From: Porphyridium purpureum
Taxonomy: Eukaryota; Rhodophyta; Bangiophyceae; Porphyridiales; Porphyridiaceae
Length of the DNA stretch: 64,000 bases
NCBI GenBank assembly: GCA_008690995.1
Contig: VRMN01000007.1
Span: forward strand, 186,001 to 250,000
Direction of reading: 5' to 3'
Part shown: piece after piece, positions 1,802-62,196 of the stretch
Layout: the number at the start of each line of letters is the position of its first letter
Numbering within the stretch: the first letter of the stretch is position 1
Notes under the pieces: generated by a model
Told to the model about the DNA's origin: nothing
The model's database searches: none
What the model saw: the letters and a program-made list of their open reading frames with translations, nothing else
Program-made: the position numbers and the translations under genes

Positions 1802-2584
1802 TCAAATGATCTTTTTCCCAGGCTCGATTTTTTTGCTTTCCAAGCTCAACACGTACAAGCTGTCATTCTGCCTCTTGCATCCAATGGCCTGCAGAAGGGC
1901 CGCATCTACACCGAGCACCATTCCGTGCGGATTGATTCCTAGCTCGACGGCGCCCGCTTCCTGCGCCTGGGCGGCGACGCCGAGCAGCAGCGTCTTGAGC
2001 GCATCCGCACGATACGACGACGCGGTCAGCTCATCCGCGATGACAAACGCACACATCTCAGCGCGCTGAACAATTGTGGCGTCCCCGCTGCTGCGTGCGC
2101 CGCCCTTGCACACCGCCAGCCCGGCTCCTAGCACGCGCTTCTCTACCTTGATCTTGGTCATGATGGAAAAGTCCGCCACCATCACAAGCGCATTCTTCAC
2201 CAAACTCACCACCAACGACCGACTGCTTCCGTACGGCGAGGGTAGAATCGACATGAGTGCGTCCACATCCTCAAGACGCGCACGACGCAAGTCCCACACA
2301 GGCTTGCCCTTGATATTCAACGCAAACTTGACCTCTTCTGGGGCCTTTGCATTCACGCCCTTCTTCTGGTTCACCTCCTTTCCCGCGCCAGCCGCACTCT
2401 TCTTCTCTGCCTCGACCCGCGATCGCAGCACCCGCGCAGACGGTGCGCTGGCCACACGCCCGTGTATTCGCAACGCCGACGCCACACGCAGAGTTTGTCG
2501 CTGCTGCCTCAACGGCGTGACACGCATCCAACTGCACGCCGCGTCAACGTCCACATTTCTCGGCACGGCGGCCACGAACGCCAT
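1802..2584 (-). CDS. Possible plastid-targeted GNAT-like protein
   Basis: A 260-residue protein if the ATG at 2584 is used. That start gives an N-terminus rich in A, R, V and S with few acidic residues (about 60 residues), like a plastid or mitochondrial transit peptide. In-frame ATGs at 2740 and 2746 would add a charged extension. A lysine- and alanine-rich linker follows, then a domain beginning with a VWDLRRARLEDVDALMSIL-type block. The C-terminal half has a helix (ADALKTLLLGVAAQAQEAGA) that resembles the acetyl-CoA-binding and helix-4 region of GNAT N-acetyltransferases. The canonical Q/RxxGxG/A loop is not clearly present, so catalysis is uncertain. It is convergent with the MAPEG gene. 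The frame is well supported by length; the family call is tentative. Confidence 0.6.
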   Translation of the reverse strand: MAFVAAVPRNVDVDAACSWMRVTPLRQQRQTLRVASALRIHGRVASAPSARVLRSRVEAEKKSAAGAGKEVNQKKGVNAKAPEEVKFALNIKGKPVWDLRRARLEDVDALMSILPSPYGSSRSLVVSLVKNALVMVADFSIMTKIKVEKRVLGAGLAVCKGGARSSGDATIVQRAEMCAFVIADELTASSYRADALKTLLLGVAAQAQEAGAVELGINPHGMVLGVDAALLQAIGCKRQNDSLYVLSLESKKIEPGKKII

Positions 2585-2752
2585 TTCAAGCCTCATGCGC
2601 AGGCACCTGCCAAAGCGGGCGCGTATCAAGCACCTCCGCCTTACCTCAAATCGCCAAACCTCAGCTCTGTTTCCTCCTCTCCTCCCTCTTCTGCTCTCAC
2701 TCCACTCTTCAACCTCACCATGCTCCGCTGGAAGGTTCATGTTCATATACAA

Positions 2753-10663: not shown

Positions 10664-10972
10664 TGTCGCAATACTCGGGATTGCGTCCCGGAAGATATCT
10701 TCAAGAGCGTGGGAGTGAAACTACGGGGCCGAGGACCGTCTGGTCATGGGCCCCGTGGTGTTCCTGCGCGTTCCGGGTAGTCCCCTCTTTCGCACTTTGA
10801 ACTCTACCGTAAGATTTCTCTCGCACACTTTACTAAATTCTTATCTTCCTTTTTTTCCCTGCGCGTGACCGCCAAGATAATGGCCGCGCTATTTATATTG
10901 TTCAGGAACTTGAACCAACCGACAGTTGTGAGACGCCTCTGAAAATACATGAGTACAGTGATCACGACGACA
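10664..10972 (-). repeat. 3' LTR of copia copy 1
   Basis: 309-bp long terminal repeat. On the plus strand it runs from TGTCGCAATA to CGACGACA. It is the downstream LTR for this minus-strand element and matches 15628-15936 base for base as far as I could compare. Confidence 0.95.
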
Positions 10973-10989
10973 CTGGAGCCTTTTTGTTT

Positions 10990-11014
10990 TTGCACCTTGT
11001 GCACCAAGGTGCAA
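10990..11014. repeat. Hairpin next to the polypurine tract, copia copy 1
   Basis: A 9-bp perfect inverted repeat (TTGCACCTT with AAGGTGCAA) surrounds a 7-base loop. It lies between the end of the polyprotein and the purine-rich tract beside the LTR. The same structure is present in copy 2 at 61846-61870. Confidence 0.7.
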
Positions 11015-11053
11015 CCTCTTCCGGAAATTTGGAGGTGTGATCATGTGCGTTCT

Positions 11054-14000
11054 TCAGAGGGTTCCATGGGATGCAGAGTGGATATGATGGTGTGGGATTT
11101 CTTGATCGTTGCAGAAATAAACTCGTGACGTTTCGTACCTGGGCAAGATTCCGTCGGTCATAATTGCTGTCCAGATGTCGCTCCGCATGATTTTGGTTAA
11201 AGGATCAGCAACATTGAGACGCCCAGGAACCAATGCTAGCTCGTCGATGTGTCGTTGGTCAAAGCCCTCGCGGAGCACGAGCAAACGAATCATTAGCCTC
11301 TTTTCGTCCAACGTGGTCTTGCTCGCGATGCAACTGAACAGGCTTTGTGAGTCTGTTGCCAAGCTAATTGGGATGTCAGCTCCCAGTAAATGTTGAAGCT
11401 CCACTTGTAGTGACTCCGCCCAGTCAAACGCTACACACAGGGCTAACAATTCGGCACCCAGGACGCTGTACGTGACGCGGTTGGTTTTGTTGCTATTCAT
11501 GACCAGCGGATGGACCCGGTCACCACTTCGCGTTCCCAAAAATACGGCGACGCCCATTTGCGATGACTTGTCGGCATTTGTAGCATAACTAGCATCTCCA
11601 AAAGCGCGAATACAAAAGTCTGTCCCTTGCAGCGGAACGAATACCAGCCCTCTATCTGGAGACTCCAGAAGTTCGCGGACTTTCCTATTCAGAGGAGTCA
11701 TGTGGCAAGGGTGGAATTGTTCCTCCGTAACTTGAGACGAGATGGCTGCAGTTGCAAGGCAATCAGGGCGGACAGCATGCGCGACGTAAGATAGTTGGCC
11801 GCGGAGGCTTCGGAAGTCTCGAAAGCTGGCTCCTTTCCGACGAGCGGACATGCCAGTTATGTAGTTGGCTTGAGAAAGCAGGATACATTCTCCGCGCCGG
11901 GAGTATTCGATGCCTGAGAAAGTAAACGGCGGTCCAGTTCGCCCCTTGTTGTCGAAGTTTTTGGCACACTGAGCTTCTGCCTCCATGACCAACGGCGATC
12001 CGCAGACGATCACGTCGTCGACGACCGTACCTGCGGCTCCTTCATTGGTTTCATGTCGAAGAAATGCACTGTCGAGCGCGGTCGGGCGGAATCCATTGTT
12101 CTGTAGCTGGGCCTTGAGCGACGAATACCAGTAAGTCCCGCTCTCTTGCAGACCGTATAATGGGTAGACCAATCGGCACGGATTTGGCATCGGACCGAGA
12201 ATGTCCTCCAGATCGCGTTGGTCTTGCGGACGGAACCGCACGAAGACGTCGCGGGATAACTTGTACGTGGATTGTACGTATGCCTGTGAGTAGTCTCGGT
12301 AGGCGATTGGTACCTTGAACGTCACGGCCAAGCTTGCCAGGACACGCTGACTCACGCGTGAAACGGTAGGAGATTCAAGAGAGATCTCGCCGCGCTGACG
12401 ATCGCGTTGGTCGCCTTGTACAACCAGTCTGGATTTCATTGTTCCGTCTGCTTTTCGGGTTCGTATCATTCTGGTTGAGAGAACGTTTGCACCATTTGAC
12501 GCGAGTGTCTTTGTGTCGAAAAGACCTCGCCTTGCTAATCCTTGCAGTTCTTTCAGGTCTGCCTCGCGAAAGTCGTCTGAAGGGTCCAAATAGTAAAGAG
12601 TGGGTTCGAGCCCATATACCGTGCCTGCATGCGGATCCCCCGTGTCATTTTCGGGTTGGAAAATTTTAACATTGCATTCATGATAGGTCGCACGCCGACC
12701 ACGCGGAGGGAGTAGCACTGAGACCTGAGGAGGATTGACTCCGGCGCAGTGATAAGGTCCGCTCCATTCATGCCCGCTTGTGCGCCTAACTAGTACGGCC
12801 TTTCCGGGGAGAGGCCCGTCTTTTTGCCTCGGAAACTCCGGGGTCTGAGCCCTGCGCGCCTCTCGAACTCGACGAACGGCTACATGTCGCTCGTATTCGT
12901 CGCGAGCAGCGAAGGCAACCGCGAGGCGCTCTGCCTGAGTGGGTGGAACTGTCCCTGGATGTAAAGGGACTCGTGGGATTGTTCCGAACGCCAACAGATA
13001 TGGCACGAGCCCATCAATTCCTTGAATGGAATTGACGGCAAACACGGACAGTGAGAGAGCCTCTGCTCGAGATGCAGCGTCTCGTTCCAAGTTGGGAGCA
13101 TCTCGCAGCACTCGAGAAAATACTTTCCTTAAGGGGCCATGCTGTCGCTCGATCAGTCCGACGGACCAATGCGCTTCTATAGCGACGGGCTCAACTTGAG
13201 TCCCTAAATTTGTGCAGGCTCGTATGAATTCTTGACTGCTCATCAGATTGTCTTGATCGCAGTGTAGCTTGCGCGGGAGACCGAATGGAACAAACCAACA
13301 GGACAAGATGCGGCGAAACGTGTCTAGTGCTGTATCAGTGGTGGGAACAAAGAAAGCAACTTGCAGACGCGTACCGGCGCAGATGATGTGCAAAACCTTT
13401 TCCTTGCGGACTGGCTCTCCATGCTCAAGCCAGAAGAAGTCGGCGACGATGTGATCATTAAACTCGACCGAAATGTCTGCGCTTGCACGATATCGAGAAC
13501 GGCGGCCTGCGTACCATTGACAAACTGGGCATTCTGCACACAATCGCTTCAATTCCTTGGCTTCCTCATTTGTCAGTGGCTCGCCCGCTCTGGACAATAC
13601 TGCGCGCAACTGTTCATGGTGCGCGTGGCCAAATCGCCGGTGCAACGTAGATAATTCTGGGGTTGTGTAACAAATTACGTCGCAGTCGCTTGCGCGTATC
13701 CAGAGCTTTCCTTGTGCGTGAAAAAGATGAACTGGGTCGTGGCCAGGAATTTCTAGTTTGGCAGATGCAGTGTCCACCTTGATGTTATGTGCTTGCATAA
13801 GGTCCAGCCCGACAAGCATTGGTAAATCATGTTGCACAATAGGGACATTCCAAGACAGGAATTTGGCGTTGGTGACTGGTATGCGCACGCTGCCACAGCC
13901 GATTGCTTTCTGCGCAACACCCCAAACGAGCGTGCGGTCGCAAGGAAGCAGGGTATTGGGCTGGCCTGTTGCGTCGCAATATGCTTTCCATTGTTCGAGT

Positions 14001-15559
14001 CCGCAACACGATGGCGCGCCTGTGTCGATACAAAATCCACGAAATGCACCAACGGAGAAAACGGATCCCGTACACTGATACACATCCCGGCTGCTATAGA
14101 TTGCGTCTGATACAAGAAATGCTCCGTCGTTGTCTAGTACGTCGGTCTCCTCTGTGCGCTCACTGCTGGCTTGTTCATGTTCGTCTTGGCCGTCAACTCC
14201 ATCGACCAAGGCCACTTTGGCGAGGGGGCGTCCATATTTCTTCCAGCACCGCGGCTCCTCGTGGCCGCGAAGGCCACAGAACGAGCATGTTTGTACGGTC
14301 TTGTGTTTGTTGTCGTCCCTTTTGCGTGGACCGCTAGGGCCATTGTATTTCTCATGCCCTAAATAGACCCCTGATGTTTCGTTGCCCGGCAGTAATCGGC
14401 CTTTACGGGCGTCCAATTGACTCAGGAAAACGCGAAGTTCAGCGAGCGTGTCCACACTATCACGTGTTTTGACGAGTGAAAGCGCTGGTGCGTAATCGGA
14501 CGCATACATCGCTTGAATCACATAGTCTGCAACTTGGTCTGGGCTATCATATGGTTGCCCAAGAAATGAACAGATGTTCTCTACGTGTTTGACCAAGACG
14601 TCGAAGGCACGCTCACGTGTCGTTTCCTCCCGCTCGAAAGTGGCAAAATTTGCACTTTTAAGCATTTGTTTGTAAGCGCTTCTCGCACTCTCGGACGAAA
14701 AGGTCTTTTCCAGCAAGGATAGTTTTTGTCCAAGTCTGCGGCATTGATCAGCCCGAGAATGAAGCAGTGACTCGGCTTGTCCAGCGGTAATAAGCGGTAA
14801 TGCGTTGGAAACTTGCGCGTCAGTCACGCCAAAGATCTCGCGTGCAGATTTCAGACGATTAACCCACTTACTGAAAGGAACAGAACCAGGCTCTCCTGTG
14901 AATCGCGATTCTGCCATGAATCTTATGAAGTTGTACGAAGCACCAGGAGGTGCTGATCCAGACGATTCGGTCATGGTGCCAAGCTCGTTCGAGCCTGTGG
15001 TTCCAATGGGCTGCTGTAACTCGGGCCTCGTCGCAGGTTGTTGCGACGCTGCTCTAGCACCAGGAGTGCTCGATGCATTTGCTCCGGGAAGTTCATTCAG
15101 ACCATTGGCCATTGCCACGTGGGGTCCCGTATGGTGCAGCTCATCTTGAATGGAAAATATAGAAAATCGTTGGAACGACGTGCGAACGCTCGTGCCTGGT
15201 TCAAAATTCGGAATCCCTCTCTCCCGGCAGAATTCGATCCACGCCTGAACAGACACAGGGCCGCCACGCGCCATGAGCCAGTCGATCGTGACGACCTGCT
15301 CAACCATGAGCATTTCAATGAAGTCGTTGGGAGCGGCTACGGCCATTTGGAGGAGGTCGCCCACTTCGTCATTAATGCGTAGTGAACTCGGCCACCATGC
15401 AGGCGCCACTACGCCCGTGTCCAAAAGGCTACGCGAATCGCCACTGTTGCTCGACTCGCGTACCGGCGGTCGGGATTCTCCGCTGGCGCGCGCGACTTCC
15501 GCAGCCCGTGTCGGGGTCGCCCGTCCACTCGAGCTGCGTGGTGTGTGTTGATCACTCAT
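11054..15559 (-). CDS. Copia gag-pol polyprotein, copy 1
   Basis: One 1501-codon frame encodes all parts. They are a gag-like N-terminal region with a CCHC zinc knuckle (CSFCGLRGHEEPRCW, near residue 425), an aspartic protease (CIDTGAPS, near 510), a GAG-pre-integrase HRRFGHAHH block (near 640) followed by the integrase core, a copia-type reverse transcriptase (about 1015-1230), and RNase H ending near the ADPLTK motif (about 1300-1460). No separate gag stop or frameshift site is seen, as in many single-frame copia elements. It differs from copy 2 at only a handful of residues. Confidence 0.95.
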   Translation of the reverse strand: MSDQHTPRSSSGRATPTRAAEVARASGESRPPVRESSNSGDSRSLLDTGVVAPAWWPSSLRINDEVGDLLQMAVAAPNDFIEMLMVEQVVTIDWLMARGGPVSVQAWIEFCRERGIPNFEPGTSVRTSFQRFSIFSIQDELHHTGPHVAMANGLNELPGANASSTPGARAASQQPATRPELQQPIGTTGSNELGTMTESSGSAPPGASYNFIRFMAESRFTGEPGSVPFSKWVNRLKSAREIFGVTDAQVSNALPLITAGQAESLLHSRADQCRRLGQKLSLLEKTFSSESARSAYKQMLKSANFATFEREETTRERAFDVLVKHVENICSFLGQPYDSPDQVADYVIQAMYASDYAPALSLVKTRDSVDTLAELRVFLSQLDARKGRLLPGNETSGVYLGHEKYNGPSGPRKRDDNKHKTVQTCSFCGLRGHEEPRCWKKYGRPLAKVALVDGVDGQDEHEQASSERTEETDVLDNDGAFLVSDAIYSSRDVYQCTGSVFSVGAFRGFCIDTGAPSCCGLEQWKAYCDATGQPNTLLPCDRTLVWGVAQKAIGCGSVRIPVTNAKFLSWNVPIVQHDLPMLVGLDLMQAHNIKVDTASAKLEIPGHDPVHLFHAQGKLWIRASDCDVICYTTPELSTLHRRFGHAHHEQLRAVLSRAGEPLTNEEAKELKRLCAECPVCQWYAGRRSRYRASADISVEFNDHIVADFFWLEHGEPVRKEKVLHIICAGTRLQVAFFVPTTDTALDTFRRILSCWFVPFGLPRKLHCDQDNLMSSQEFIRACTNLGTQVEPVAIEAHWSVGLIERQHGPLRKVFSRVLRDAPNLERDAASRAEALSLSVFAVNSIQGIDGLVPYLLAFGTIPRVPLHPGTVPPTQAERLAVAFAARDEYERHVAVRRVREARRAQTPEFPRQKDGPLPGKAVLVRRTSGHEWSGPYHCAGVNPPQVSVLLPPRGRRATYHECNVKIFQPENDTGDPHAGTVYGLEPTLYYLDPSDDFREADLKELQGLARRGLFDTKTLASNGANVLSTRMIRTRKADGTMKSRLVVQGDQRDRQRGEISLESPTVSRVSQRVLASLAVTFKVPIAYRDYSQAYVQSTYKLSRDVFVRFRPQDQRDLEDILGPMPNPCRLVYPLYGLQESGTYWYSSLKAQLQNNGFRPTALDSAFLRHETNEGAAGTVVDDVIVCGSPLVMEAEAQCAKNFDNKGRTGPPFTFSGIEYSRRGECILLSQANYITGMSARRKGASFRDFRSLRGQLSYVAHAVRPDCLATAAISSQVTEEQFHPCHMTPLNRKVRELLESPDRGLVFVPLQGTDFCIRAFGDASYATNADKSSQMGVAVFLGTRSGDRVHPLVMNSNKTNRVTYSVLGAELLALCVAFDWAESLQVELQHLLGADIPISLATDSQSLFSCIASKTTLDEKRLMIRLLVLREGFDQRHIDELALVPGRLNVADPLTKIMRSDIWTAIMTDGILPRYETSRVYFCNDQEIPHHHIHSASHGTL

Positions 15560-15627
15560 TTTCGCTTGACCCCGAACCTTTTCTTACGCGAAATTGTTCA
15601 GCCACACTTCTTCAGCGAATTTGCAAA

Positions 15628-15936
15628 TGTCGCAATACTCGGGATTGCGTCCCGGAAGATATCTTCAAGAGCGTGGGAGTGAAACTACGGGGCCGAGGAC
15701 CGTCTGGTCATGGGCCCCGTGGTGTTCCTGCGCGTTCCGGGTAGTCCCCTCTTTCGCACTTTGAACTCTACCGTAAGATTTCTCTCGCACACTTTACTAA
15801 ATTCTTATCTTCCTTTTTTTCCCTGCGCGTGACCGCCAAGATAATGGCCGCGCTATTTATATTGTTCAGGAACTTGAACCAACCGACAGTTGTGAGACGC
15901 CTCTGAAAATACATGAGTACAGTGATCACGACGACA
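15628..15936 (-). repeat. 5' LTR of copia copy 1
   Basis: 309-bp LTR with TG/CA ends, upstream of the polyprotein start for this minus-strand element. The flanking duplication GAAAC follows at 15937-15941. About 70 bp of leader separate it from the polyprotein start. Confidence 0.95.
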
Positions 15937-15941
15937 GAAAC

Positions 15942-21367: not shown

Positions 21368-22279
21368 ATGGAGAATTATCAGAAGATTGAGGTGCTGGGC
21401 AAGGGGACGTACGGAAAGGTGTACAAGGCCGTGCACATTCCGACGAACCGCACCGTCGCGTTGAAGAAGACCTTGCTGACAAATGAGGAGGAGGGCGTGC
21501 CGCCCACAACGCTGCGCGAGGTGAGTATCTTGCGCACGTTGGATAGCCCGTACGTCGTGTCGCTGCTGGATGTCGAGCACACGGAGAGTCGAGATGGAAA
21601 GCCGCTTCTGTACCTCGTGTTCGAGCATATGGACCATGACCTCAAGCAGTACACGCAGCTCACCAAGGGCCGCAACGTGCCGCTCGAGCTCGACGTGTCC
21701 AAGAATTTCATCTATCAGGTGCTCCTCGGCTTGCGCGAGATCCACGCAAACTCCATCATGCACCGCGACCTCAAGCCGCAGAACCTGCTGGTCTCCAAGG
21801 ACGCCAAGCAAATCAAGATTGCCGATTTCGGCCTGGGACGCGTCTTTTCGGTGCCCGTCGGCAAGTACACGCACGAGATCGTCACGCTGTGGTACCGCGC
21901 CCCCGAGATCTTGCTTGGAACGCGGTGCTACTCGACGGCCGTCGACGTGTGGAGCACCGGATGCATCCTCGCCGAAATGGTGCACGGCAGGAGCATCTTT
22001 TGCGGCGAGTCCGAGATTGAGCAGCTCTTTGCAATCTTTCGCGTGCTTGGCACGCCCAACGCTCAGATCTGGCCGGGCGTCGAGGATCTGCGCGATTTCC
22101 ATGAGTTCCCGCAGTGGAAGCCCCAGGAACTGGAGAGGATCTTGCCCGCGCTCGGCTCGCAAGGCTGCGACCTGGTAGGCCGCATGCTTATGCTCGACCC
22201 GGCAAAGCGCATCTCGGCCAACCAGGCGCTCAAGCATCCGTTCTTCGACGACATCCGGGCGAATTACCCTGAGAGCTAG
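21368..22279 (+). CDS. CDKB: Cyclin-dependent kinase, plant B-type (CDKB)
   Basis: Predicted 303-residue serine/threonine kinase of near-minimal CDK length. The glycine loop GKGTYG (11-16) places inhibitory-type Thr14 and Tyr15 exactly as in CDK1. The catalytic lysine is at 33, HRDLKPQN at 132-139, DFG at 153-155 and the T-loop threonine at 168 (KYTHE). The cyclin-binding helix reads PPTTLRE (45-51), not PSTAIRE. PPTTLRE is the hallmark of plant and algal CDKB2-type kinases, which act at G2/M with cyclins. The T-loop VPVGKYTHEIVTLWYRAPE is also CDKB-like. The first ATG of the kinase domain is at 21368; the frame is open upstream but has no ATG. Confidence 0.92.
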   Translation: MENYQKIEVLGKGTYGKVYKAVHIPTNRTVALKKTLLTNEEEGVPPTTLREVSILRTLDSPYVVSLLDVEHTESRDGKPLLYLVFEHMDHDLKQYTQLTKGRNVPLELDVSKNFIYQVLLGLREIHANSIMHRDLKPQNLLVSKDAKQIKIADFGLGRVFSVPVGKYTHEIVTLWYRAPEILLGTRCYSTAVDVWSTGCILAEMVHGRSIFCGESEIEQLFAIFRVLGTPNAQIWPGVEDLRDFHEFPQWKPQELERILPALGSQGCDLVGRMLMLDPAKRISANQALKHPFFDDIRANYPES

Positions 22280-22876
22280 GGGCCGGCCGCGTTCCGCACG
22301 CTCACGACATGTGCATAGGTGTGCTAGACTCATCAACGCGATTCGAGCCCAAGCGCTCTTGCCACACTCGCGTGCTTGCGATCGAGTCTGTATTTATGAC
22401 GTGGCGCGGAAGGGTTAAACGTAGGTGACCTCTTTCACGCAGTTCGTCTCGGACGTGTACCTGTTTTTATTCTCAAATCGCGCATGAAAGACATAAATTC
22501 TTCACCGACAAGCCCTCCTCCAACGCGGTCATGTGCGCGAGCTCTCGTGGTATGGATCTGACCCGTAGGCGACAGAACCATTCCAAGGAGGAGTGACTGT
22601 TGCTCCGGCTTGGCCAACTCTGAGCTCTTCTACATTATCGTCAGAAAATGGAACAAAGAGATCATGAGCGACGGGACCAATCCACGCCAACTCGGCCACT
22701 TTCCCGCACGCTGCAATTCGCATGCGACATTCTTCCGTTCTCGATCGGTCCACCGTGAGTTCACTGTACACCTCCTAACTACCGCAAAAAAATGAGAACC
22801 CCACAAGTGTACACCCATCCTCAGCTAACTCTAAGAATATATTATCTAATTTCCGCGCCCTTCATCAGAGCTGCGT
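22280..22876. other. Interval between CDKB and the permuted tRNA
   Basis: About 600 bp. Two short overlapping minus-strand frames (about 22435-22615 and 22529-22770) have protein-like composition but no ATG-defined start or known domain. They could be a decayed or spliced small gene, or noise. Confidence 0.4.
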
Positions 22877-22889
22877 CCGAAGATGTGTT

Positions 22890-23013
22890 TCGCAGTGGGA
22901 AACCGCGCGAGTTCGAATCTCGTCGACAGTAATTCGTGTGGAAGTTCATCCCGCAGGGAATGAGCTTTCGCAAGCGCTGTCGTGGCCGAGTGGTCTAAGG
23001 CGCTGTGTTCAGG
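22890..23013 (+). tRNA. Circularly permuted tRNA-Leu (anticodon CAG)
   Basis: The gene is written back to front. First comes the 3' half (22890-22931): anticodon-stem 3' strand CGCAG (22891-22895), an 11-base variable arm, T arm GCGAG-TTCGAAT-CTCGT (22907-22923), acceptor 3' strand CGACAGT (22924-22930) and discriminator A. A 44-base spacer follows, then the 5' half (22976-23013): acceptor 5' strand GCTGTCG, D arm with GGCCGAGTGGTCTAAGGC, anticodon stem CTGTG and loop start TTCAGG with anticodon CAG. All stems pair between halves: acceptor 7 of 7 (one G-U), anticodon 5 of 5 (one U-G), T stem 5 of 5 (one G-U). The halves meet between positions 37 and 38, and the joined anticodon arm matches the usual eukaryotic tRNA-Leu(CAG). 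The B box (22911-22919) therefore precedes the A box (22983-22993). Confidence 0.93.
22932..22975 (+). other. Intervening spacer of the permuted tRNA
   Basis: 44 bases between the 3' acceptor end and the 5' acceptor start. In permuted pre-tRNAs this segment is removed by RNase P and 3'-processing enzymes after the halves are ligated into a circle. No CCA is encoded after the discriminator A at 22931. Confidence 0.8.
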
Positions 23014-23028
23014 ACTTCGGCCCTCCTC

Positions 23029-23034
23029 TTTTTT
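23029..23034 (+). terminator. RNA polymerase III terminator
   Basis: A run of six T residues lies 15 bases after the end of the tRNA 5' half. Its position after the 5' half, not after the 3' half, supports a single permuted transcript spanning both halves. Confidence 0.85.
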
Positions 23035-46295: not shown

Positions 46296-47219
46296 ATGGC
46301 GTTTGTGGGAGGAGCGGGAGTATGGGCAGCGGCGGCCGCGGGGAGGGGAGTAGGGGGTGCGCGGGTGTGCGCGCTCAGCAGGGATGGCGCGGAGCGGCGC
46401 GCGCGACACGCGCCCGTGCGCCACCGCGTGAGCCGCGTGAGCATGGCAAGGACCGAGACCGCGCAGGACACCCCCGTCAAGCTGATCGAGGGCGAGGACG
46501 GCGAGATGCAGTGGGAGAACAAGGGGCGCGTCATCAAGCCGAGCTTGGCGGAGAAGGAGAACATGTTTGTCGACGCGCTGTACTCGTTCTACGCAGGCAA
46601 GCCGCTCATGTCCAACGACGATTTCGACGCGCTCAAGGAGGACCTGTCCTGGCAGGGCAGCCAGACCGTCACGCTCAGCAGGGACGAGCTCACGCTCCTC
46701 GCCGCCGTGCGTTCCTACTCTGAGGGCACGCCCATCATGAACGACAAGGAGTTTGACGAGCTCAAGGATCGGCTGCGCAAGCAGGGCTCCAAGGCCGCGA
46801 TCCAGGTCGAGCCCAAGTGCTCCATCATTCAGCAGGCGTGCTGGAGCGACTGCGTCGAGGACAACACCCGCAAGACCGTGCTCTACCTGCCCGGCACCGG
46901 CATTGGCGCGCTGATCTGGGCCGTCGTCGCGTTCGAGTTTACGCCGCTGCGCGACGAGTCGCCGCTCATCTCGCTGCTCGTCGGTATGCCGTTCATCCTC
47001 CTCATCGGCAGGATTCTCACGGAAACCATCCTGCCCGATCCGCTCATCCTGCAGGGCAAGTGCCCCAACTGCGCGTCAGATCAGCACGTCTACTTTGGCA
47101 CCATCGCAACCGTCGAGGGCTACACGGACATGGCCGAAGTCGTCTGTACAAATTGCTCCAGCAAACTCACGCTCGACCGCGCGCAGCGCAGGTTCCGCCT
47201 CGACATGAGCAAAAAGTAG
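46296..47219 (+). CDS. PGRL1: PGRL1-like thylakoid protein
   Basis: Predicted 307-residue plastid membrane protein. It resembles PGR5-like 1, which with PGR5 mediates antimycin-sensitive cyclic electron flow from ferredoxin to plastoquinone around photosystem I. The first 50 residues (A/G/R/V-rich, no acidic cluster) fit a transit peptide. Two repeated blocks (DALYSFYAGKPLMSNDDFDALKEDLSWQGS and AVRSYSEGTPIMNDKEFDELKDRLRKQGS) match the paired N-terminal helices of PGRL1. Two membrane segments follow (about 193-213 and 222-245). The C-terminus has two CxxC pairs, CPNC (about 255) and CTNC (about 284), matching the redox or metal-binding cysteines of PGRL1. Further cysteines flank the first membrane segment (CSIIQQACWSDC). 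The ATG at 46296 is the first in the open frame. Confidence 0.88.
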   Translation: MAFVGGAGVWAAAAAGRGVGGARVCALSRDGAERRARHAPVRHRVSRVSMARTETAQDTPVKLIEGEDGEMQWENKGRVIKPSLAEKENMFVDALYSFYAGKPLMSNDDFDALKEDLSWQGSQTVTLSRDELTLLAAVRSYSEGTPIMNDKEFDELKDRLRKQGSKAAIQVEPKCSIIQQACWSDCVEDNTRKTVLYLPGTGIGALIWAVVAFEFTPLRDESPLISLLVGMPFILLIGRILTETILPDPLILQGKCPNCASDQHVYFGTIATVEGYTDMAEVVCTNCSSKLTLDRAQRRFRLDMSKK

Positions 47220-56918: not shown

Positions 56919-56923
56919 CTCTC

Positions 56924-57232
56924 TGTCGTCGTGATCACTGTACTCATGTATTTTCAGAGGCGTCTCACAACTGTCGGTTGGTTCAAGTTCCTGAACAATA
57001 TAAATAGCGCGGCCATTATCTTGGCGGTCACGCGCAGGGAAGAAAAGGAAGATAAGAATTTAGTAAAGTGTGCGAGAGAAATCTAACGGTAGAGTTCAAA
57101 GTGCGAAAGAGGGGACTACCCGGAACGCGCAGGAACACCACGGAGCCCATGACCAGACGGTCCTCGGCTCCGTAGTTTCACTCCCACGCTCTTGAAGATA
57201 TCTTCCGGGACGCAATCCCGAGTATTGCGACA
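56924..57232 (+). repeat. 5' LTR of copia copy 2
   Basis: 309-bp LTR from TGTCGTCGTG to TATTGCGACA. An AATATAAATA sequence near 56996-57005 could act as a TATA box for the element transcript. The first bases after the LTR (TTTGCAAATTC) are not the TGG start of a standard tRNA 3'-end primer site. Confidence 0.95.
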
Positions 57233-57300
57233 TTTGCAAATTCGCTGAAGAAGTGTGGCTGAACAATTTCGCGTAAGAAAAGGTTCGGGGTCAAGCGAAA

Positions 57301-60300
57301 ATGAGTGATCAACACACACCACGCAGCTCGAGTGGACGGGCGACCCCGACACGGGCTGCGGAAGTCGCGCGCGCCAGCGGAGTATCCCGACCGCCGGTAC
57401 GCGAGTCGAGCAACAGTGGCGATTCGCGTAGCCTTTTGGACACGGGCGTAGTGGCGCCTGCATGGTGGCCGAGTTCACTACGCATTAATGACGAAGTGGG
57501 CGACCTCCTCCAAATGGCCGTAGCCGCTCCCAACGACTTCATTGAAATGCTCATGGTTGAGCAGGTCGTCACGGTCGACTGGCTCATGGCGCGTGGCGGC
57601 CCTGTGTCTGTTCAGGCGTGGATCGAATTCTGCCGGGAGAGAGGGATTCCGAATTTTGAACCAGGCACGAGCGTTCGCACGTCGTTCCAACGATTTTCTA
57701 TATTTTCCATTCAAGATGAGCTGCATCATACGGGACCCCACGTGGCAATGGCCAATGGTCTGAATGAACTTCCCGGAGCAAATGCATCGAGCACTCCTGG
57801 TGCTAGAGCAGCGTCGCAACAACCTGCGACGAGGCCCGAGTTACAGCAGCCCATTGGAACCACAGGCTCGAACGAGCTTGGCACCATGACCGAATCGTCT
57901 GGATCAGCACCTCCTGGTGCTTCGTACAACTTCATAAGATTCATGGCAGAATCGCGATTCACAGGAGAGCCTGGTTCTGTTCCTTTCAGTAAGTGGGTTA
58001 ATCGTCTGAAATCTGCACGCGAGATCTTTGGCGTGACTGACGCGCAAGTTTCCAACGCATTACCGCTTATTACCGCTGGACAAGCCGAGTCACTGCTTCA
58101 TTCTCGGGCTGATCAATGCCGCAGACTTGGACAAAAACTATCCTTGCTGGAAAAGACCTTTTCGTCCGAGAGTGCGAGAAGCGCTTACAAACAAATGCTT
58201 AAAAGTGCAAATTTTGCCACTTTCGAGCGGGAGGGAACGACACGTGAGCGTGCCTTCGACGTCTTGGTCAAACACGTAGAGAACATCTGTTCATTTCTTG
58301 GGCAACCATATGATAGCCCAGACCAAGTTGCAGACTATGTGATTCAAGCGATGTATGCGTCCGATTACGCACCAGCGCTTTCACTCGTCAAAACACGTGA
58401 TAGTGTGGACACGCTCGCTGAACTTCGCGTTTTCCTGAGTCAATTGGACGCCCGTAAAGGCCGATTACTGCCGGGCAACGAAACATCAGGGGTCTATTTA
58501 GGGCATGAGAAATACAATGGCCCTAGCGGTCCACGCAAAAGGGACGACAACAAACACAAGACCGTACAAACATGCTCGTTCTGTGGCCTTCGCGGCCACG
58601 AGGAGCCGCGGTGCTGGAAGAAATATGGACGCCCCCTCGCCAAAGTGGCCTTGGTCGATGGAGTTGACGGCCAAGACGAACATGAACAAGCCAGCAGTGA
58701 GCGCACAGAGGAGACCGACGTACTAGACAACGACGGAGCATTTCTTGTATCAGACGCAATCTATAGCAGCCGGGATGTGTATCAGTGTACGGGATCCGTT
58801 TTCTCCGTTGGTGCATTTCGTGGATTTTGTATCGACACAGGCGCGCCATCGTGTTGCGGACTCGAACAATGGAAAGCATATTGCGACGCAACAGGCCAGC
58901 CCAATACCCTGCTTCCTTGCGACCGCACGCTCGTTTGGGGTGTTGCGCAGAAAGCAATCGGCTGTGGCAGCGTGCGCATACCAGTCACCAACGCCAAATT
59001 CCTGTCTTGGAATGTCCCTGTTGTGCAACATGATTTACCAATGCTTGTCGGGCTGGACCTTATGCAAGCACATAACATCAAGGTGGACACTGCATCTGCC
59101 AAACTAGAAATTCCTGGCCACGACCCAGTTCATCTTTTTCACGCACAAGGAAAGCTCTGGATACGCGCAAGCGACTGCGACGTAATTTGTTACACAACCC
59201 CAGAATTATCTACGTTGCACCGGCGATTTGGCCACGCGCACCATGAACAGTTGCGCGCAGTATTGTCCAGAGCGGGCGAGCCACTGACAAATGAGGAAGC
59301 CAAGGAATTGAAGCGATTGTGTGCAGAATGCCCAGTTTGTCAATGGTACGCAGGCCGCCGTTCTCGATATCGTGCAAGCGCAGACATTTCGGTCGAGTTT
59401 AATGATCACATCGTCGCCGACTTCTTCTGGCTTGAGCATGGAGAGCCAGTCCGCAAGGAAAAGGTTTTGCACATCATCTGCGCCGGTACGCGTCTGCAAG
59501 TTGCTTTCTTTGTTCCCACCACTGATACAGCACTAGACACGTTTCGCCGCATCTTGTCCTGTTGGTTTGTTCCATTCGGTCTCCCGCGCAAGCTACACTG
59601 CGATCAAGACAATCTGATGAGCAGTCAAGAATTCATACGAGCCTGCACAAACTTAGGGACTCAAGTTGAGCCCGTCGCTATAGAAGCGCATTGGTCCGTC
59701 GGACTGATCGAGCGACAGCATGGCCCCTTAAGGAAAGTATTTTCTCGAGTGCTGCGAGATGCTCCCAACTTGGAACGAGACGCTGCATCTCGAGCAGAGG
59801 CTCTCTCACTGTCCGTGTTTGCCGTCAATTCCATTCAAGGAATTGATGGGCTCGTACCATATCTGTTGGCGTTCGGAACAATCCCACGAGTCCCTTTACA
59901 TCCAGGGACAGTTCCACCCACTCAGGCAGAGCGCCTCGCGGTTGCCTTCGCTGCTCGCGACGAATACGAGCGACATGTAGCCGTTCGTCGAGTTCGAGAG
60001 GCGCGCAGGGCTCAGACCCCGGAGTTTCCGAGGCAAAAAGACGGGCCTCTCCCCGGAAAGGCCGTACTAGTTAGGCGCACAAGCGGGCATGAATGGAGCG
60101 GACCTTATCACTGCGCCGGAGTCAATCCTCCTCAGGTCTCAGTGCTACTCCCTCCGCGTGGTCGGCGTGCGACCTATCATGAATGCAATGTTAAAATTTT
60201 CCAACCCGAAAATGACACGGGGGATCCGCATGCAGGCATGGTATATGGGCTCGAACCCACTCTTTACTATTTGGACCCTTCAGACGACTTTCGCGAGGCA

Positions 60301-61806
60301 GACCTGAAAGAACTGCAAGGATTAGCAAGGCGAGGTCTTTTCGACACAAAGACACTCGCGTCAAATGGTGCAAACGTTCTCTCAACCAGAATGATACGAA
60401 CCCGAAAAGCAGACGGAACAATGAAATCCAGACTGGTTGTACAAGGCGACCAACGCGATCGTCAGCGCGGCGAGATCTCTCTTGAATCTCCTACCGTTTC
60501 ACGCGTGAGTCAGCGTGTCCTGGCAAGCTTGGCCGTGACGTTCAAGGTACCAATCGCCTACCGAGACTACTCACAGGCATACGTACAATCCACGTACAAG
60601 TTATCCCGCGACGTCTTCGTGCGGTTCCGTCCGCAAGACCAACGCGATCTGGAGGACATTCTCGGTCCGATGCCAAATCCGTGCCGATTGGTCTACCCAT
60701 TATACGGTCTGCAAGAGAGCGGGACTTACTGGTATTCGTCGCTCAAGGCCCAGCTACAGAACAATGGATTCCGCCCGACCGCGCTCGACAGTGCATTTCT
60801 TCGACATGAAACCAATGAAGGAGCCGCAGGTACGGTGGTCGACGACGTGATCGTCTGCGGATCGCCGTTGGTCATGGAGGCAGAAGCTCAGTGTGCCAAA
60901 AACTTCGACAACAAGGGGCGAACTGGACCGCCGTTTACTTTCTCAGGCATCGAATACTCCCGGCGCGGAGAATGTATCCTGCTTTCTCAAGCCAACTACA
61001 TAACTGGCATGTCCGCTCGTCGGAAAGGAGCCAGCTTTCGAGACTTCCGAAGCCTCCGCGGCCAACTATCTTACGTCGCGCATGCTGTCCGCCCTGATTG
61101 CCTTGCAACTGCAGCCATCTCGTCTCAAGTTACGGAGGAACAATTCCACCCTTGCCACATGACTCCTCTGAATAGGAAAGTCCGCGAACTTCTGGAGTCT
61201 CCAGATAGAGGGCTGGTATTCGTTCCGCTGCAAGGGACAGACTTTTGTATTCGCGCTTTTGGAGATGCTAGTTATGCTACAAATGCCGACAAGTCATCGC
61301 AAATGGGCGTCGCCGTATTTTTGGGAACGCGAAGTGGTGACCGGGTCCATCCGCTGGTCATGAATAGCAACAAAACCAACCGCGTCACGTACAGCGTCCT
61401 GGGTGCCGAATTGTTAGCCCTGTGTGTAGCGTTTGACTGGGCGGAGTCACTACAAGTGGAGCTTCAACATTTACTGGGAGCTGACATCCCAATTAGCTTG
61501 GCAACAGACTCACAAAGCCTGTTCAGTTGCATCGCGAGCAAGACCACGTTGGACGAAAAGAGGCTAATGATTCGTTTGCTCGTGCTCCGCGAGGGCTTTG
61601 ACCAACGACACATCGACGAGCTAGCATTGGTTCCTGGGCGTCTCAATGTTGCTGATCCTTTAACCAAAATCATGCGGAGCGACATCTGGACAGCAATTAT
61701 GACCGACGGAATCTTGCCCAGGTACGAAACGTCACGAGTTTATTTCTGCAACGATCAAGAAATCCCACACCATCATATCCACTCTGCATCCCATGGAACC
61801 CTCTGA
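57301..61806 (+). CDS. Copia gag-pol polyprotein, copy 2
   Basis: A single 1501-codon frame with the same domain order as copy 1: gag-like region, CCHC knuckle, aspartic protease, integrase, reverse transcriptase and RNase H. It differs from copy 1 at about five residues overall. The element looks whole. Confidence 0.95.
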   Translation: MSDQHTPRSSSGRATPTRAAEVARASGVSRPPVRESSNSGDSRSLLDTGVVAPAWWPSSLRINDEVGDLLQMAVAAPNDFIEMLMVEQVVTVDWLMARGGPVSVQAWIEFCRERGIPNFEPGTSVRTSFQRFSIFSIQDELHHTGPHVAMANGLNELPGANASSTPGARAASQQPATRPELQQPIGTTGSNELGTMTESSGSAPPGASYNFIRFMAESRFTGEPGSVPFSKWVNRLKSAREIFGVTDAQVSNALPLITAGQAESLLHSRADQCRRLGQKLSLLEKTFSSESARSAYKQMLKSANFATFEREGTTRERAFDVLVKHVENICSFLGQPYDSPDQVADYVIQAMYASDYAPALSLVKTRDSVDTLAELRVFLSQLDARKGRLLPGNETSGVYLGHEKYNGPSGPRKRDDNKHKTVQTCSFCGLRGHEEPRCWKKYGRPLAKVALVDGVDGQDEHEQASSERTEETDVLDNDGAFLVSDAIYSSRDVYQCTGSVFSVGAFRGFCIDTGAPSCCGLEQWKAYCDATGQPNTLLPCDRTLVWGVAQKAIGCGSVRIPVTNAKFLSWNVPVVQHDLPMLVGLDLMQAHNIKVDTASAKLEIPGHDPVHLFHAQGKLWIRASDCDVICYTTPELSTLHRRFGHAHHEQLRAVLSRAGEPLTNEEAKELKRLCAECPVCQWYAGRRSRYRASADISVEFNDHIVADFFWLEHGEPVRKEKVLHIICAGTRLQVAFFVPTTDTALDTFRRILSCWFVPFGLPRKLHCDQDNLMSSQEFIRACTNLGTQVEPVAIEAHWSVGLIERQHGPLRKVFSRVLRDAPNLERDAASRAEALSLSVFAVNSIQGIDGLVPYLLAFGTIPRVPLHPGTVPPTQAERLAVAFAARDEYERHVAVRRVREARRAQTPEFPRQKDGPLPGKAVLVRRTSGHEWSGPYHCAGVNPPQVSVLLPPRGRRATYHECNVKIFQPENDTGDPHAGMVYGLEPTLYYLDPSDDFREADLKELQGLARRGLFDTKTLASNGANVLSTRMIRTRKADGTMKSRLVVQGDQRDRQRGEISLESPTVSRVSQRVLASLAVTFKVPIAYRDYSQAYVQSTYKLSRDVFVRFRPQDQRDLEDILGPMPNPCRLVYPLYGLQESGTYWYSSLKAQLQNNGFRPTALDSAFLRHETNEGAAGTVVDDVIVCGSPLVMEAEAQCAKNFDNKGRTGPPFTFSGIEYSRRGECILLSQANYITGMSARRKGASFRDFRSLRGQLSYVAHAVRPDCLATAAISSQVTEEQFHPCHMTPLNRKVRELLESPDRGLVFVPLQGTDFCIRAFGDASYATNADKSSQMGVAVFLGTRSGDRVHPLVMNSNKTNRVTYSVLGAELLALCVAFDWAESLQVELQHLLGADIPISLATDSQSLFSCIASKTTLDEKRLMIRLLVLREGFDQRHIDELALVPGRLNVADPLTKIMRSDIWTAIMTDGILPRYETSRVYFCNDQEIPHHHIHSASHGTL

Positions 61807-61845
61807 AGAACGCACATGATCACACCTCCAAATTTCCGGAAGAGG

Positions 61846-61870
61846 TTGCACCTTGGTGCACAAGGTGCAA
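61846..61870. repeat. Hairpin next to the polypurine tract, copia copy 2
   Basis: A 9-bp perfect inverted repeat with 7-base loop, identical in form to that of copy 1. The purine-rich tract AAACAAAAAGG (61871-61881) follows just before the 3' LTR. Confidence 0.7.
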
Positions 61871-61887
61871 AAACAAAAAGGCCCCAG

Positions 61888-62196
61888 TGTCGTCGTGATC
61901 ACTGTACTCATGTATTTTCAGAGGCGTCTCACAACTGTCGGTTGGTTCAAGTTCCTGAACAATATAAATAGCGCGGCCATTATCTTGGCGGTCACGCGCA
62001 GGGAAGAAAAGGAAGATAAGAATTTAGTAAAGTGTGCGAGAGAAATCTAACGGTAGAGTTCAAAGTGCGAAAGAGGGGACTACCCGGAACGCGCAGGAAC
62101 ACCACGGAGCCCATGACCAGACGGTCCTCGGCTCCGTAGTTTCACTCCCACGCTCTTGAAGATATCTTCCGGGACGCAATCCCGAGTATTGCGACA
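61888..62196 (+). repeat. 3' LTR of copia copy 2
   Basis: 309-bp LTR matching 56924-57232 in my reading. The target duplication CTCTC follows at 62197-62201. Confidence 0.95.

Follow-up and report, generated by a model that had tools for sequence, protein, structure and literature searches.

Two halves of a tRNA-Leu(CAG) sequence lie in reversed order on one strand of the 64-kb stretch of DNA analyzed here (the window), which raises the question of whether they make up a working gene or are what is left of one. From its sequence, we consider it very probable that the region at 22877-23034 is a circularly permuted nuclear gene for tRNA-Leu(CAG), intact and of type II (junction 37/38), from the compact genome of an alga, perhaps a red one. 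The gene itself (22890-23013) is most likely functional.

An earlier note on this DNA had placed the 3' half of the tRNA upstream of the 5' half across a 44-base gap, enclosed both halves in a CCGAAG/CTTCGG helix with six Watson-Crick pairs, put a T6 after the 5' half, and described the promoter boxes as reversed, with B before A. The coordinates agree with each part of this layout (Table). When joined, the halves give a complete 80-nt tRNA that ARAGORN calls tRNA-Leu(cag), the identity that had been proposed. The further claim of an exact join between positions 37 and 38 holds in that the usual Leu(CAG) anticodon loop (TTCAGG plus T) is present by sequence, but it is loosened by one base, as position 38 could be supplied by either 23014 (A) or 22890 (T).

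Table. Features of the candidate permuted tRNA-Leu(CAG) gene, of two retrotransposons in the same window, and of a virus locus (L120) discussed in the text. Positions are those of the window, or of L120 where stated.
Feature	Position	Strand	Remarks
TATA-like element AATATATTAT	22836-22845	+	core TATATTA at 22838-22844; core starts 39 nt 5' of the outer helix
Outer helix, 5' strand (CCGAAG)	22877-22882	+	6/6 Watson-Crick pairs with 23015-23020
Leader portion of junction loop (ATGTGTT)	22883-22889	+	presumably lost on splicing
tRNA-Leu(CAG) 3' half, positions 38-73 (42 nt)	22890-22931	+	T38 to A73; T arm 22907-22923; B box GTTCGAATC from 22911; discriminator A73 at 22931
Intervening sequence (44 nt)	22932-22975	+	links the 3' end of the tRNA to its 5' end; hairpin 22937-22972
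tRNA-Leu(CAG) 5' half, positions 1-37 (38 nt)	22976-23013	+	G1 to G37; A box from 22983; anticodon CAG 23010-23012; G37 at 23013
Outer helix, 3' strand (CTTCGG)	23015-23020	+	pairs with 22877-22882
T6, probable Pol III terminator	23029-23034	+	T6 common in window and weak alone; position fits
Copia-type LTR retrotransposon	10664-15938	-	RVT_2; about 7 kb from the tRNA; 1501-aa frame intact
Copia-type LTR retrotransposon	56922-62196	+	RVT_2; about 34 kb from the tRNA; 1501-aa frame intact
L120, units 1 and 2	2033-2378 of L120	-	apparently an outer tRNA with encoded CCA around a permuted inner tRNA
L120, unit 3	1847-2007 of L120	-	readable as an outer tRNA with encoded CCA around a permuted inner tRNA

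The acceptor, anticodon, and T stems, which were said to pair across or within the halves, are complete. The acceptor stem has 7/7 pairs with one G-U (1-72), and the anticodon and T stems each have 5/5 pairs, again with one G-U. The D stem is 3/3, the variable stem is 2 bp long, and the G-U pairs in all stems number three. Consensus nucleotides are found at T8, A14, G15/C48, G18G19, T33, T54T55C56, A58, and A73. The joined tRNA combines the eukaryotic consensus positions with complete stems, and its CCA is not encoded, since ATT comes after A73.

Read in its linear order, the DNA gives no such tRNA. At normal settings ARAGORN finds no tRNA in the linear 64-kb window, whether introns (to 1500) are allowed or not, and at a lowered score it makes 48 calls of doubtful worth. 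Rfam has no match in the window, nor in the tRNA region even at E 10, and this null at the tRNA region is expected for a permuted gene. An ordinary intron-containing tRNA gene was rejected because the 5' half is not located 5' of its 3' half and ARAGORN reports 0 genes with introns to 1500. Ordinary partners for the separate halves were also sought nearby. In the 1.5 kb that follow the 5' half, no site matching its acceptor strand (≥6/7) is preceded by a T arm, and none of the 11 acceptor-matching sites upstream of the 3' half (in 21400-22890) resembles a 5' half by eye.

The earlier note had called for a permuted-tRNA search of the region. A strict scanner, devised after the locus had been seen, demands a 7/7 acceptor stem, a 5/5 T stem with G53-C61, a 3/3 D stem, and a 5/5 anticodon stem, together with T8, A14, GG in the D loop, T33, a purine at 37, and a gap of up to 120. 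It returns one locus on both strands of the window, the tRNA-Leu(CAG) locus, and none in 1000 dinucleotide-preserving shuffles. Relaxing the scan (acceptor ≥6, anticodon stem ≥4, gap to 400) again yields this locus alone, in two registers. ARAGORN also recovers the locus when it is run with introns allowed on circularized 260-base pieces, in three pieces that overlap one another, one of them with a spurious Ala reading. This procedure is permissive and therefore less decisive, for it gives 1 wrapped match in 20 shuffles and 88 matches, 41 of them wrapped, in 400 (approximately 0.1 per window).

The intervening sequence can fold into a 16-bp hairpin with one bulge that is more stable than expected (-20.6 kcal/mol vs -9.2 for shuffled sequences; z = -4.88; 0/200 shuffles as stable). 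The same is true of the whole precursor from 22876 to 23022 (z = -4.15; 0/200 shuffles as stable). Its minimum-energy fold retains the acceptor stem and the intervening hairpin, pairs the trailer with the D arm, and lacks the other parts of the cloverleaf. A structure with the cloverleaf, hairpin, and outer helix has a predicted energy of -53.8 kcal/mol vs -62.5 for the minimum-energy fold, and with this energy model the joined tRNA alone does not adopt a cloverleaf as its minimum-energy fold. At the splice junction, the 5' strand (TTCAGGA) and the 3' strand (ATGTGTTT) could form the central helix of a bulge-helix-bulge motif with a U32-G pair, a U33-U mismatch, and C34-G and A35-U pairs, but adding this helix worsens the energy (-51.4 kcal/mol). 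With the 6-bp outer helix and a possible 3-nt bulge, the modeled junction is at best a partly formed, relaxed bulge-helix-bulge.

The flanking signals were compared with chance expectation. Six or more Watson-Crick pairs arise in shuffled flanks with P = 0.015 (20,000 trials; P = 0.10 when G-U pairs are counted), and pairing of this extent (≥6) occurs at 51 of 1711 other places in the window. The outer helix is therefore moderately unusual, which is supportive but is no proof. The TATATTA core is found three times on both strands of the whole window, where 0.47 occurrences are expected, and 1 of 100 shuffles reached this number. By analogy with Cyanidioschyzon merolae, the element that contains it may serve as a Pol III promoter. 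T6 is over-represented (80 matches in the window on both strands, overlapping ones counted; 30 expected; 0/100 shuffles with as many), so the putative terminator is weak evidence by itself. No T run longer than three occurs between 22890 and 23013, and the longest in the intervening sequence is three. By sequence match, then, the signals of a type II gene are present: a TATA-like element on the 5' side, a T stretch on the 3' side, and no termination signal between them.

The best surviving alternative, although an improbable one, is that the locus is a dead remnant in which two intron-bearing tRNA-Leu genes in tandem have lost their outer halves, leaving an unexpressed 3' half followed by a 5' half. 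Such a loss would leave just the observed arrangement, and loss of outer halves from tandem tRNA genes is itself a proposed route to permuted genes in the available part of a 2014 review (PMC3978253). However, no decay is seen at this locus, where the stems are complete and the conserved positions that were checked are kept, and the outer helix, the stable hairpin, and the signals resembling a promoter and a terminator suit an expressed unit. It is far less credible still that the 5' or the 3' half belongs to a split tRNA and is joined in trans to a partner from elsewhere, because the two halves pair fully at the acceptor and anticodon stems and are separated by 44 bp that contain no T run longer than three, a layout that argues for a single transcript. 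An assembly artifact or a chance resemblance is just as hard to credit, given that the strict scan finds nothing in shuffled windows and that a misjoin would hardly yield an outer helix and an intervening hairpin that both suit the permuted order.

If the locus is an intact permuted gene, its transcription, circularization, and processing may follow the route known from C. merolae and green algae, on which the following scheme is based. That route comprises transcription from an upstream promoter, splicing at the junction to give a circle, the action of RNase P and tRNase Z, and CCA addition (PMC3978253, available part). Here, RNA polymerase III would transcribe a single RNA from the 5' TATA-like element, consisting of leader, 3' half, intervening sequence, 5' half, and trailer. 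The halves would be kept together by an acceptor stem that the hairpin lengthens, along with the anticodon stem and the outer helix. The tRNA-splicing endonuclease would cut after G37 and before T38, and a ligase would seal the cut ends to produce a circular RNA. RNase P and tRNase Z would then cut out the intervening hairpin, and CCA would be added. That the hairpin would bring the acceptor strands together is our own suggestion.

A permuted tRNA-Leu(CAG) gene of C. merolae was reportedly described by Soma et al. in 2007. In Table 1 of the review (PMC3978253), so far as its text was available, this gene is of type II with a 37/38 junction and a 9-bp intervening sequence. Compared by its Table 1 entries rather than by sequence, it has the amino acid, the anticodon, the junction, and the absence of a further intron in common with the window gene. 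The intervening sequences differ, since the one in the window is 44 bp long and contains the 16-bp hairpin, but this length is inside the range of 7-74 bp given for permuted genes of C. merolae (PMC3978253). Most of these genes are also said there to have a TATA-like element on the 5' side and a T-stretch on the 3' side, both of which occur at the window gene. The earlier note had called permuted tRNA genes established in Cyanidioschyzon and some green picoalgae. It had left it unsaid whether this gene had been described, and the answer has two parts: C. merolae is known to have a Leu(CAG) gene permuted at this junction (PMC3978253), and no description of the window locus was found in the open-licence literature on permuted tRNA (C. 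merolae, Porphyridium, Galdieria, red algae, and algae), searched mostly by title and abstract.

Other permuted genes share the general arrangement. The available parts of PMC3978253 and PMC4494063 describe type II genes of Ostreococcus, Micromonas, and chlorarachniophyte nucleomorphs that have reversed halves and a short intervening sequence like the window gene, and, with a single exception, those in Table 1 of the former have the 37/38 junction. The entries seen for this set are Ser, Cys, Leu(TAA), iMet, Arg(TCT), and Asn, with no Leu(CAG) listed among them. Auxenochlorella has nuclear permuted tRNA genes that were missed by a first tRNAscan-SE search (PMC12633428, in the part available). 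The archaeon Thermofilum pendens has permuted tRNAs with similarly reversed halves, but unlike the window gene these have a 59/60 junction, an extra intron, and an encoded CCA (PMC3978253). The review counted 34 permuted tRNA genes in 2014, and later reports include PMC12633428 and PMC4494063. Porphyridium is used as an outgroup in PMC13353863, which, in the portion available, cites the 2007 paper on permuted tRNA genes. The window gene appears to be a further example of the permuted tRNA genes known from algae.

The genes around the locus indicate its genomic setting. Pfam was used to scan 17 proteins picked from 30 frames, nine at E 0.001 and eight at 1e-6, and a family was found in 13 of them (6/9 and 7/8, respectively). 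The first set includes mitochondrial calcium uniporter, oxoprolinase, WD40, protein kinase, RecQ-type helicase, and SNase families, and the second includes SET/PWWP/PHD, ABC transporter, DEAD-box, Ulp1-type protease, aminopeptidase P, together with copia-type reverse transcriptases (RVT_2) in two proteins. These families point to a eukaryotic nuclear window, which has a GC content of 56%, long intron-free reading frames, and plastid-type proteins. The proteins at 46296-47219 (plus strand) and 1802-2746 (minus strand) have no Pfam match. MAFV at the start of a protein is a habit of red-algal transit peptides. It begins at residue 1 of the 46296-47219 protein, which we take to resemble PGRL1, and at residue 55 of the 1802-2746 protein, where the true start could be. 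A red-algal origin is suggested tentatively by the GC content, the long frames free of introns, the plastid-type proteins, and this MAFV reading.

The two copia elements share 99.66% identity in an alignment of 5275 nt and differ at 5 of 1501 residues. Their LTRs match at 298/300 and 300/300 positions, and the near identity of these repeats suggests that the elements are probably young. C. merolae, in contrast, has almost no recognizable transposons according to the available text of PMC3978253. For this reason, and because of the 9-bp gap in its permuted Leu(CAG) gene, C. merolae itself was rejected as the origin of the window DNA. The same review raises the ideas that disrupted tRNA genes may protect against mobile elements and that reverse transcription may give rise to permuted tRNA genes. 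A window that contains copia elements is compatible with either, a guard against mobile elements or an origin by reverse transcription.

Pattern scans of virus and prokaryote contigs for relatives of the window gene, including three prokaryote stretches, provided a control set of at least 143 and later at least 263 loci. Among the matches listed for 143 loci, the strict permuted scan has matches in two, L115 and L120, and it has none in the three prokaryote stretches. Two adjoining ordinary tRNA-Ser genes account for the match in L115. ARAGORN with introns of 10-250 makes 315 calls among the matches listed for the 143 loci and is thus too permissive to count alone.

L120 is part of a 322,570-bp virus record (IMGVR_UViG_3300010224_000001); the tRNA model gives 13 matches, 10 of them above the cut-off. 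The locus apparently contains two, perhaps three, successive nested units in which the inner order is 3' half, short loop, 5' half. In all three units the inner acceptors, which differ in sequence, are fully paired (7/7), and the outer ones pair 6/7. In unit 2, the best of the three, joining gives tRNA-Ser(gct) for the inner part and tRNA-Asn(att) for the outer part, and no tRNA comes from either ordinary reading. The minimum-energy fold of this unit is an outer cloverleaf within which the acceptor, T, and D arms of the inner tRNA are formed, with the inner anticodon stem in another register. The folding energy of unit 2 is no better than that of shuffles (z = 0.4), and units 1 and 3 have z-scores of -1.4 and -2.7. 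Unit 3 can instead be read as two ordinary tRNAs at 1940-2007 and 1847-1936 (234850-234917 and 234757-234846 of the record), each above the tRNA model cut-off, and another reading of the units is a decayed tRNA fusion. In trial joins many positions yield some tRNA call, as do three of six control combinations of halves (two from unit 3, one from unit 1, and none from unit 2). If the nested arrangement is real, then on a bold reading excision of the inner part would turn one RNA into two tRNAs. This stretch has no match among phage records, a neighboring protein has no relative but itself in the virus collection, and no paper on such an arrangement was found in the literature searched. L120 may be a more novel lead than the window gene.

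Among the matches listed for 263 loci (L001-L143 and L146-L265, with two repeats of the L120 record left out), 37 of 2965 neighboring T-arm-then-D-arm combinations have 7/7 acceptors vs a mean of 9.7 after partners are swapped, a comparison that leaves related tRNAs within a contig and overlapping contigs uncontrolled. The swap maximum in 200 trials is 20, and shuffled DNA gives 0 in 10 rounds. For 28 of the 37 fully complementary pairs, neither half is in an ordinary tRNA gene, and many of these 28 are without a credible anticodon arm. At 5191-5251 of L222, a capped acceptor is situated between T and D arms and seems to be without an anticodon arm. At 9662-9719 of L182, a unit of T arm, capped acceptor, and D arm starts 44 nt past the end of a ROOL RNA.

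Standard tRNA searches overlook permuted genes, and this is true of the window gene as well. Each added permuted gene helps to decide between an ancient and a repeated origin and to learn how such genes are dealt with by RNA polymerase III and by the splicing endonuclease. A second Leu(CAG) gene with a 37/38 junction, in a genome with recent retrotransposons, would be usable for comparison with C. merolae. We advance one broader interpretation tentatively, as it is more doubtful than the gene assignment itself. The same isoacceptor may be permuted at the C. merolae site in a distinct lineage of red algae that does not belong to the Cyanidiophyceae of hot springs and has young copia elements in its genome, in which case the permutation would be old or recurrent at this gene, and the intervening sequence may have turned into a hairpin, lengthening the acceptor stem and helping to hold the circle for processing. 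If this is true, then together with the transposon-rich Ostreococcus (PMC3978253, available part) it would counter the idea that permuted tRNAs accompany transposon-free genomes.
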